This document shows, piece by piece, positions 44,316 to 47,642 of a stretch of 64,000 bases of DNA; position 1 is the first letter of the stretch, and each line of letters opens with the position of its first letter. A program made the translations under genes and the position numbers. Origin of the DNA: Methanomicrobia archaeon (GTDB lineage: Archaea > Halobacteriota > Bog-38 > Methanoflorentales > Methanoflorentaceae); assembly GCA_015660915.1 (NCBI GenBank), contig JACTTZ010000009.1, forward strand, positions 1-64,000, read 5' to 3'. The notes under the pieces were generated by a model. It saw nothing but the letters and a program-made list of their open reading frames with translations. It was not told the origin of the DNA and did no database searches.

Positions 44316-45314
44316 TTACTGGTTTGATTTGACGACCGCGAGATTGATTGCAACCTCAGCTATGTTTATGCTATAATCTGCCACTCGGTCAATACTGTTA
44401 GTGACGCAATATAGCGGCAGCGCGACGTGCGCATCAAGATCTAACACCTTTTCTTCAACACTTTTAAGCACCGAAAGCTGCCTACTTTTAGTCCCAATGG
44501 CTTTTTCGGCAAGCTTTGCGTCAAGCTTTGAAAGGGCGTCCATCGCAAGCTGCATGATGTCATTTGAAAGAGTACTTGCTTCACTGATGCTGTCGAGAAT
44601 CTCATTGGGCACAGATCCTCCGGCGAGCGTCAACACGCAGCGCGCTATCTTCGTCGCGTGGTCCGCAATCCGCTCAAGCGAAACGGCGGTGAGATAGTAC
44701 TCAAGACTCTCGTTCGCGCCTATGTCGGAAGCTTCCGCGAACGGAGTCTTCATCATCGCCTGCAAGCGTTTGAGCACGAGCAAGTAGTGCCGGTCGACAT
44801 CACGATCTCTCAATATGACGTCATTGGCAAGATCGATGTCATTTTTCAGCAGGGATTTTGTTGCATCGGCGTGCATCGACTCAATAATGAGATGCATTCG
44901 CCGAATGGATTTCTTCACTTGAAGCTCGTTGGGACTGAGAAAATCTTGTATCACGACTGAATTTGCAGTCTCTTCAACGAGTTCCATACCGATGAGGCGA
45001 TACGACATGTCACGTATGGTCTTTCGCTGATCGGACCGGATCTTCTGTGCGCGCAGCTCGAACGTTTTGTAGCCCGCGATGTAAATAGCAATCATCTGCC
45101 GCGCTAGCGCATCATCAAAAAGATCGTCAATGCTGACAATCCCACGCTCCTGCGGCTTCACCTGCTCTCTAGGCGTGATGCGCAGCGAGCCGTCAGGTAA
45201 CGCTGATAATCCCACTTGAGACTTCTCCTTCAAACCGAGATGTGTGGCCCACGCCTTAGGCAGGGAAACGGTGTAGCTTGATTTGCCGGTCAGTTGAATC
45301 TTCCGAATCTCCAT
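44316..45314 (-). CDS. AbrB-PhoU fusion phosphate-uptake regulator
   Basis: 332 residues from ATG 45314. The N-terminus MEIRKIQLTGKSSYTVSLPKAW is an AbrB/SpoVT DNA-binding swapped hairpin, and two PhoU repeats follow (SLERIADHATKIARC, SIDRVADYSINIAEVA carry the metal-binding pattern). Such fusions are the usual archaeal regulators of pst genes. It heads the pst operon on this strand. TTATATAA (45326-45333) ends about 12 bases before the ATG, so the mRNA is probably leaderless or nearly so. Confidence 0.92.
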   Translation of the reverse strand: MEIRKIQLTGKSSYTVSLPKAWATHLGLKEKSQVGLSALPDGSLRITPREQVKPQERGIVSIDDLFDDALARQMIAIYIAGYKTFELRAQKIRSDQRKTIRDMSYRLIGMELVEETANSVVIQDFLSPNELQVKKSIRRMHLIIESMHADATKSLLKNDIDLANDVILRDRDVDRHYLLVLKRLQAMMKTPFAEASDIGANESLEYYLTAVSLERIADHATKIARCVLTLAGGSVPNEILDSISEASTLSNDIMQLAMDALSKLDAKLAEKAIGTKSRQLSVLKSVEEKVLDLDAHVALPLYCVTNSIDRVADYSINIAEVAINLAVVKSNQ

Positions 45315-45376: not shown

Positions 45377-45507
45377 TGCCGGGGGCGGGACTTGAACCCG
45401 CGCTCTTCAGATATCTCAGGTGTCGTGTCGGAATACCCTATGAGTCTGACACCTTAGCCATCTAGATCGTTGCCTGCGTGTGCAACAACTAACTAGGCCA
45501 CCCCGGC
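45377..45507 (-). tRNA. elongator tRNA-Met (CAT) with two introns
   Basis: The 131-base gene folds into a 74-nt tRNA once two inserts are removed: acceptor GCCGGGG/CCCCGGC with A73, D arm GCCT-AGTTGGCTA-AGGT, anticodon arm TCAGA-CTCATAA-TCTGA (anticodon CAT), 5-nt variable loop, T arm GCGGG-TTCAAGT-CCCGC. CCA is not encoded. Insert 1 (45490-45460, 31 nt) lies in the D loop; insert 2 (45438-45413, 26 nt) is at the usual position after base 37. Both ends of both inserts form 3-nt bulges around a 4-bp helix (CTAG/CTAG and CTCA/TGAG). Upstream, TTTTATAG (45573-45580 on the + strand complement) is the likely TATA box. tRNA-Ile2 shares the CAT anticodon, but G1-C72 and the arms fit tRNA-Met. Confidence 0.9.
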
Positions 45508-45585
45508 CGCCGCGAGGTGCTGTAACAGGCTACAGCAACCCCTTCAGACACTCCCGCTATTACGAGCGCCCTATAAAAGGCTTTT

Positions 45586-46418: not shown

Positions 46419-47642
46419 CTAATATTCGTCAAAAAACTCTGGCTCAATCCCCAACTCAAACATCTCCTGAATGACCACGCATATGTTGTGGCACAATACC
46501 TTTAGCAACACTTCATTCACCTGAGCCGCTTCCATCTTACTCCTGACCGAATCCCCGAACTTGCTCTTTATCATGTGGAACGTCGTTTCGGCGTTGCTCC
46601 GCTTGTGGTAGTGCTCTAGAAATTCCGCATTTTTGTATTCGAAGTAATGGTACATCTTCTTCCACGTCGGAGCGTTCTTTGCTCTTCCCGTTGTTCCTTT
46701 TCTAAAGGGAATGTAAGGCACAGCTCCTATCTCGTTTATCAGCTCCAAATTAGCTCTTGAAGAGTACGCCTTATCCCCCGAAACTTCTTTGACCGTAAAA
46801 TTCTGCGCCGTCTGCATTACGAGCTCCGGCAGAAACTTACTGTCGCGCTCATTGGTCATCGTCAGCTCAACGGCGGTGACGATGTTTGTTTTAACCCCAC
46901 AAGCTACGTGCGCTTTTACCCACGTCCTAACGTCTTTGTCTTTGCCGTATTTGTGGTCGAACCATTTGATGAACCGCGAGGTTCCAAATCCTGAGCTGTC
47001 TATCGTAAAGTCATTCTCGACTGAAGCTAAGGCGAGGCTTGTTATGGTGATAAGGTCTTTGATGATGGGCGTTAGTTCTGGACTCTCCATATACCGCGCT
47101 ACCGTTGAGTAATAAGGCACTTTGTCAATGAGGCCGCGTTCCTTTGCAACTTCCATGTCGGTAGCGAATCGCCTTAGCGAAAATGTTGAAAAGACCTTCA
47201 AGGCCGAAGAAAACACCATATCTGCCAGTGGTAACTTCGGTCGGCCAAATGTGTATTTAGGTTGTGGAATGGTGCTTGTTACGTCTCCAAGCAGTTGCAT
47301 AAACAGCTCCTTTTGGTGTATCTGAGCGTGGTCGTAAGCTTGCCAGTTTTGCGCGTAGCTTACCCTCTTCGTAACTGTCTGCGTTACTGTTCCTTCTTCG
47401 TTAATCTCTTCCGTGACGATTAACTCAACCGCGAAGATATGCTTGCACTTTATCTTCCGGTATTGGTAGTCAGGGCAAGTGCAAGACTGCGTGTTTTCAA
47501 ACTCTGAGAATTCTACGTCGTATGTGGCTCCGTTTGACTGAGAGGGCACTATCCAACCATTGCCGTTCTTGGTGATTTTGCAGGTCTTTGCTATGTTCAA
47601 CCCCCGTTCCTTTCGAGCTTCGAGCAATTCTTGAGCTAACAT
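46419..47642 (-). CDS. IS5-type DDE transposase with N-terminal SWIM zinc finger
   Basis: 407 residues. A SWIM-type zinc finger (C54-x-C56, C66-x-H68) precedes an IS4/IS5-type DDE catalytic domain: D215 in FTIDSSGFG, D290 in VSGDKAYSS, E352 within Y345-HK-R348-SNA-E352-TTFHMI-K359, an exact Y(2)R(3)E(6)K signature. It cuts and joins the element ends. The gene is intact, so the element may be active. It is divergent from the AbrB-type gene across a region of TACCTA iterons. Confidence 0.93.
   Translation of the reverse strand: MLAQELLEARKERGLNIAKTCKITKNGNGWIVPSQSNGATYDVEFSEFENTQSCTCPDYQYRKIKCKHIFAVELIVTEEINEEGTVTQTVTKRVSYAQNWQAYDHAQIHQKELFMQLLGDVTSTIPQPKYTFGRPKLPLADMVFSSALKVFSTFSLRRFATDMEVAKERGLIDKVPYYSTVARYMESPELTPIIKDLITITSLALASVENDFTIDSSGFGTSRFIKWFDHKYGKDKDVRTWVKAHVACGVKTNIVTAVELTMTNERDSKFLPELVMQTAQNFTVKEVSGDKAYSSRANLELINEIGAVPYIPFRKGTTGRAKNAPTWKKMYHYFEYKNAEFLEHYHKRSNAETTFHMIKSKFGDSVRSKMEAAQVNEVLLKVLCHNICVVIQEMFELGIEPEFFDEY

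Follow-up and report, generated by a model that had tools for sequence, protein, structure and literature searches.

Bulge-helix-bulge (BHB) introns at non-canonical tRNA positions are already known; the case described here adds a new one from a lineage, and alongside an enzyme type, for which the reviews do not expect them. In the Thermoproteales (Pyrobaculum and others), BHB motifs are found at several tRNA positions, D-arm sites included, and there are multiple introns per tRNA, which resembles the elongator tRNA-Met (eMet) gene of the methanogen in this study. However, the Thermoproteales have (alpha-beta)2 endonucleases with a CSL and dozens of introns, whereas in our host four non-canonical introns were found and the predicted alpha'2-type EndA lacks a CSL. 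Like the host, Methanopyrus kandleri and Methanothermobacter thermautotrophicus are methanogens of the Euryarchaeota in which tRNA introns are multiple or non-canonical (PMC4033280, PMC3218864), but they are thermophiles and the M. kandleri enzyme is (alpha-beta)2, while the host belongs to another lineage and has the alpha'2 type. Candidatus Methanohalarchaeum thermophilum HMET1, also a euryarchaeal methanogen, has one or two BHB introns per tRNA-Pyl (PMC9071458), whereas in the host genus the tRNAs concerned are elongator Met, Ile and Ser. The Asgard archaea share with the host a soil or wetland habitat and non-canonical and multiple tRNA introns, but their intron content of 92-95% is a far higher load in an unrelated lineage (PMC11291895).

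The position of introns has been related to the type of splicing endonuclease. According to the review PMC4033280, the alpha4 and alpha2 endonucleases of Euryarchaeota cleave canonical BHB only, and Korarchaeum cryptofilum is the sole alpha2 archaeon with non-canonical introns. This combination resembles that of the host, but a specificity loop is attributed to the Korarchaeum enzyme, whereas EndA of the host genus has no insert there. Other reviews associate non-canonical introns with specificity loops or a heterotetrameric enzyme, and a milder view is that BHL motifs are cleavable by homodimers (PMC6379350, PMC8707768). In this literature, "broad" specificity means the cleavage of relaxed motifs (PMC6379350, PMC12397907). 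Homodimeric enzymes cut the strict hBHBh' motif irrespective of the tRNA context (PMC8707768), and the substrates of the Haloferax endonuclease include BHB motifs in rRNA and a 5' UTR (PMC7714728).

We analysed a stretch of 64,000 nucleotides (the window) from a draft genome (G000) of 2.04 Mb in 27 contigs, which is 90.8% complete and carries mcrA. Among the genomes compared, the host lineage is represented by one genus only, and its nearest relatives are otherwise at the level of the phylum, Methanocella included. The GTDB genus Bog-38 has been equated with 'Candidatus Methanoflorens' (PMC10805028). The features of the locus and of two further tRNA genes are listed in Table 1.

Table 1. Positions of the eMet gene and its neighbours in the window, and of two other intron-bearing tRNA genes in the host genome
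Feature	Position	Strand	Remarks
Elongator tRNA-Met(CAT) gene with two introns	45377..45507	(-)	pre-tRNA 131 nt, mature tRNA 74 nt; covariance model 78.1 bits
Exon 1	45491..45507	(-)	acceptor 5' strand, D-stem 5' strand, D-loop to U17
Non-canonical BHB intron, D-loop 17/18	45460..45490	(-)	31 nt; strict hBHBh'; all pairs kept in 4 congeners
Exon 2	45439..45459	(-)	D-loop from G18, D-stem 3' strand, anticodon stem 5' strand and anticodon
Canonical BHB intron, 37/38	45413..45438	(-)	26 nt; eMet genes in other families of the phylum likewise hold one canonical intron
Exon 3	45377..45412	(-)	A38, anticodon stem 3' strand, variable loop, T-arm, acceptor 3' strand, discriminator A73
Putative archaeal promoter (AAAAGCCTTTTATA)	45572..45585	(-)	from upstream-region alignment; predicted function
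PhoU-like gene, downstream of the eMet gene	44316..45314	(-)	syntenic anchor for orthologous tRNA genes in congeners
tRNA-Ile(GAU)	G000:C11:89503-89610		33-nt D-stem intron at 23/24
tRNA-Ser(CGA)	G000 C12:6079-6214 (L138)		D-loop and variable-arm introns, no canonical intron

An earlier note on this DNA had proposed that the removal of 45490-45460 and 45438-45413 leaves a perfect 74-nt tRNA, and both the sequence and ARAGORN agree exactly with this. On the minus strand the gene reads GCCGGGGTGGCCTAGTT, 31 nt, GGCTAAGGTGTCAGACTCATA, 26 nt and ATCTGAAGAGCGCGGGTTCAAGTCCCGCCCCCGGCA, and the three exons joined are recognized by ARAGORN as tRNA-Met(CAT). In the raw window, both ARAGORN and Rfam at the gathering threshold missed the unspliced gene, because of the D-loop intron. 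The locus is the top match of the elongator-Met covariance model in the genome, and its elongator body is confirmed by GCCGGGGTGGCCTAG...ACTCATA, which is common to eMet genes across the phylum. A second intact tRNA-Met, which according to the same note would have marked this gene as a pseudogene, was searched for. The two other CAT tRNAs of the genome are an initiator (L010), with A1-U72 and GGG/CCC in the anticodon stem, and an Ile2-type tRNA (L001), which has a tRNA-Ile body and an Ile model score of 85.9 bits. No second elongator tRNA-Met was found in the 91%-complete draft; a further copy could be missing from it, though no congener has one.

The putative promoter element lies 65-78 nt upstream of the gene and is conserved in four species (the host and three congeners). 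The leader just upstream of the gene contains a hairpin (TGCTGTA/TACAGCA, 45508-45545), and the hairpins of congeners at this place differ in sequence. Further upstream, at 46419-47642, there is an ORF that resembles a transposase and may have a SWIM zinc-finger close to its start, as judged by eye from the translation.

An exhaustive scan of all splice pairs (4-bp core, two 3-nt bulges) returned the two proposed eMet introns as its top two motifs, which confirmed the bulges, the core helices and the cut after the second bulge base that had been described for both. In the D-loop intron, the outer helix is TGGC/GCTA (4 bp), the core is CTAG/CTAG (4 bp) and the bulges are TT^A and AT^G. The inner helix, GTTGTTGC/GCAACGAT, has the 8 bp noted before, G-U pairs included. 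The insert has the strict hBHBh' form, as both flanking helices are present (h 4 bp, h' 8 bp). In the canonical intron, the outer helix is the anticodon stem (5 bp), the core is CTCA/TGAG, the bulges are TA^G and AT^A, and the inner helix has 3 bp. None of 2000 dinucleotide shuffles of the eMet gene gave a BHB with h of at least 4 and h' of at least 8 bp, and a search of the 64-kb window on both strands, with the core kept free of G-U pairs and the intron between 11 and 60 nt, found no such motif besides the D-loop intron.

The comparison with relatives, which had been suggested with intron loss in mind, covered congeners and other families of the phylum. The eMet orthologue is syntenic in three congeners and was located by a covariance-model search in a fourth (G005), and both introns are kept in all five species. 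In the five-species alignment, the 40 tRNA and BHB pairs are formed throughout (200/200 cells). Five pairs of the inner helix of the D-loop intron are altered on one side (GU to AU, GC to GU, UG to UA, UA to UG) and none is broken, while the apical loop varies freely; no double-sided compensatory change was found for this intron in the alignment. We also searched 157 genomes of the phylum with a model of the mature eMet. The best matches listed measure 72-125 nt in other families and 130-132 nt in this genus alone, and in two genomes of family f9 the best match of 74 nt leaves no room for introns, as judged by its length. Twenty eMet loci were read, namely that of G005 and 19 from other genera. 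The D-loop is intact in all 19 genes outside the genus, 18 of which have one anticodon-loop insert and one of which has no insert; ARAGORN places the anticodon wrongly in three of the loci read. A second intron in the eMet genes of other families, which extend up to 125 nt, was considered and ruled out, as they hold a single long anticodon-loop insert. The restriction of the 130-132-nt matches to this genus and the intact D-loops elsewhere suggest that the D-loop intron is specific to this genus, as far as sampled among the 157 genomes. Most simply, it arose once in the ancestor of the genus and has been retained since.

The eMet gene is not the only unusual tRNA gene of the host. We found 44 tRNA genes in the genome, and 17 of them bear introns (39%), compared with about 8% in Euryarchaeota (PMC4090602). 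Canonical introns are present in 15 of the 17, eMet included, and tRNA-Ile(GAU) and tRNA-Ser(CGA) are purely non-canonical. The latter two hold three further non-canonical introns, at Ile 23/24 and in the D-loop and the variable arm of Ser. The Ile intron has the core GTTT/GAAT, bulges GA^T and AT^G, an inner helix of 9 bp and an outer helix of only 1 bp, so that its motif is relaxed. It is present in all six congeners, and three pairs of its inner helix have changed on both sides.

The tRNA-Ser(CGA) gene was found by a genome B-box pattern scan and a custom acceptor/T-arm finder, and ARAGORN recognizes a tRNA-Ser when both inserts are removed. Its D-loop intron (17 nt) has the core GGAC/GTCC, bulges TA^A and CA^A and no outer helix; the flanking sequences repeat and this placement puts A.C at pair 12-23, which makes its register less certain. 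The variable-arm intron (32 nt) has h GATG/CATC, the core CCTT/GAGG and bulges GC^A and AT^G. Both are present in four congeners, where 98% of the pair cells hold with hardly any variation. A canonical intron in this gene was considered and rejected, as the anticodon stem and loop form properly with no intron there and the second insert can be placed in a variable-arm BHB. The tRNA-Leu(TAG) and tRNA-Leu(GAG) genes were not seen by these searches in G000, nor among the loci examined in the drafts G002 and G004, and may be hidden by further introns. Ala-TGC was likewise unseen in G000 by the same searches and is intact in G004. Two loci of G002 are also peculiar. L167 (C93:131385-131499) is a Ser(CGA) gene without its first exon and upstream region, where about 110 nt appear to be deleted; this may reflect an assembly error, a pseudogene or a relocated exon. 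In L189 (C96:1497-1603), the D-loop of a tRNA-Ser(GGA) has a short tandem duplication (GGACTACGACTACGGC) that is absent from the congeners seen.

The D-loop intron of a euryarchaeon had been taken by the earlier note to imply a splicing endonuclease of broad specificity, to be sought as a heterotetramer or epsilon2-like type. A PF01974 search of the host genome revealed instead a single EndA gene, with two tRNA_int_endo domains in one 351-aa frame. The same two-domain gene is present in five congeners, and in a sixth it is interrupted by the contig end. The protein matches A. fulgidus EndA over nearly its full length (E 9e-37), and the positions of the catalytic Tyr, His and Lys are conserved. 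In the alignment, it has no lysine-bearing CSL/ASL insert where 3p1y, A. fulgidus EndA with a loop inserted at the CSL site, carries extra residues, and it is shorter than the ARMAN-2 enzyme at this site. Separate genes for catalytic and structural subunits were not found in the genome or in the five congeners whose copy is complete, each with one two-domain frame. The protein is also distinct from the epsilon2 type, with 351 aa and two domains versus a three-unit protomer of about 390 aa (ARMAN-2). Methanocella and the families f12 and f16 have single two-domain EndA genes as well, with open frames of 355-394 aa and without such an insert. On these sequence features, the host EndA is classed as alpha'2-type (homodimeric) without CSL/ASL loops, its dimer state and cleavage being predicted. 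A second EndA subunit could be missing from the 91% draft, though there is none in any congener.

As the D-loop motif is complete, its unusual position needs no special enzyme, and since a strict BHB is an ordinary homodimer substrate anywhere, the argument for broad specificity from this intron fails. The endonuclease might nevertheless be broad in practice, owing to a second subunit that is missing here or to some feature beyond the known loops, and so enable the unusual introns. The intron content of this genome beside that cited for Euryarchaeota, the three other non-canonical introns and the relaxed Ile and Ser D-loop motifs are in favor of this explanation, but the host and its congeners have a single two-domain EndA with no insert at the 3p1y site, and the strict eMet motif does not require broad specificity for its splicing. 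We therefore regard a broad endonuclease as rather unlikely.

It is very probable that 45377-45507 is a functional elongator tRNA-Met with two protein-spliced BHB introns, which are cut by a homodimeric EndA and ligated by an RtcB-type ligase. In the proposed pathway, the gene would be transcribed from the upstream TATA-like element and the ends of the transcript trimmed. The precursor would form two strict BHBs, one of them in the D-arm, where the intron separates U17 from G18, and the other in the anticodon arm. The alpha'2-type EndA would then cut the four bulges, each after the second base, and the exons would be joined by an RtcB-type ligase. Splicing of the eMet, Ile and Ser introns in the cell, including cleavage, ligation and the order of removal, is predicted from sequence.

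The unconstrained minimum free energy fold of the whole pre-tRNA (-51.8 kcal/mol) and the two-BHB fold (-46.6 kcal/mol) are different structures, about 5 kcal/mol apart. In the former, exon GGUGUC is paired with intron GACACC and the anticodon BHB does not form. Given the conservation of the BHB pairs, this fold was not counted on its own as evidence against the two-BHB structure. The canonical introns of eMet genes (45413-45438; L271-L284) contain a segment complementary to about exon nt 23-28, which is GGUGUC/GACACC in the host and GGCGUC/GACGCC, GGCGCC/GGCGCC or AAGGCGCU/AGCGCCUU in other families. This complement, which recurs across families with matching changes, would compete with the D-stem or the anticodon BHB. 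It could be argued that this alternative fold governs how fast or in which order the introns are removed, as it is the energetically preferred fold of the eMet precursor and as similar complementarity is found in many families. However, it involves the canonical intron and not the D-loop intron, and shuffle tests of individual genes were mostly weak, so such control appears improbable. That the eMet gene is a decayed or interrupted pseudogene with a D-loop insert that is not removed, a reading to which its oversight by ARAGORN and by Rfam at the cut-off might lead, is extremely doubtful, as the mature eMet is perfect, no other elongator Met was found, and the gene, its introns and the BHB pairs are conserved in five species.

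The D-stem 23/24 intron of tRNA-Ile(GAU) is common to at least four families of the phylum (L296-L301, L305), and we rejected the idea that it is specific to the genus, as it also occurs in three other families. There it has the same position and a different sequence, with the core GTCG/CGAC in f9 and GTTG/CAAT in f12 and f16, the f16 motif being read by eye. The intron predates the genus. The f9 genomes with the intron are taken to include Methanocella paludicola and its relative RC-I MRE50. The paper on these two organisms counted 4 and 5 intron-bearing tRNAs with an intron-aware finder (PMC3146512), and we saw no text that calls the Ile intron of Methanocella non-canonical. As the finder was intron-aware, this intron may already be annotated in a database.

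The host genome also contains numerous 3' fragments of tRNA genes, mostly from tRNA-Val and some from Asp and His (C9:200812-200868, C10:68214-68270, C1:84802-90267, C11:166938-166993, C27:2538-2608 and C26:9932-9953; L039, L040, L042-L050), and there are more in congeners (L206-L220). Several of the fragments directly follow a coding end that reads like YQTVHDGALAFLVVVSP. They resemble the attachment sites of a large element family that would integrate at tRNA-Val genes.

Taken together, essential tRNA genes in such genomes escape ordinary tRNA finders. The relaxed Ile and Ser D-loop motifs alongside a supposedly narrow enzyme are not predicted by the published co-evolution rule, and the non-canonical introns of this genus (at least four) and the Ile 23/24 intron of Methanocella, with loop-less alpha'2-type enzymes, offer a direct test of the rule in PMC4033280. 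Several methanogen families, the cultured Methanocella included, may inherit relaxed-BHB non-canonical introns, above all that at Ile(GAU) 23/24, which are removed by a loop-less alpha'2 EndA; we consider the case for this to be evenly balanced. If true, loop-less homodimeric endonucleases would be less restricted in the cell than the published co-evolution scheme holds, and the host genus would have extended this inheritance of relaxed introns with introns in eMet and Ser.
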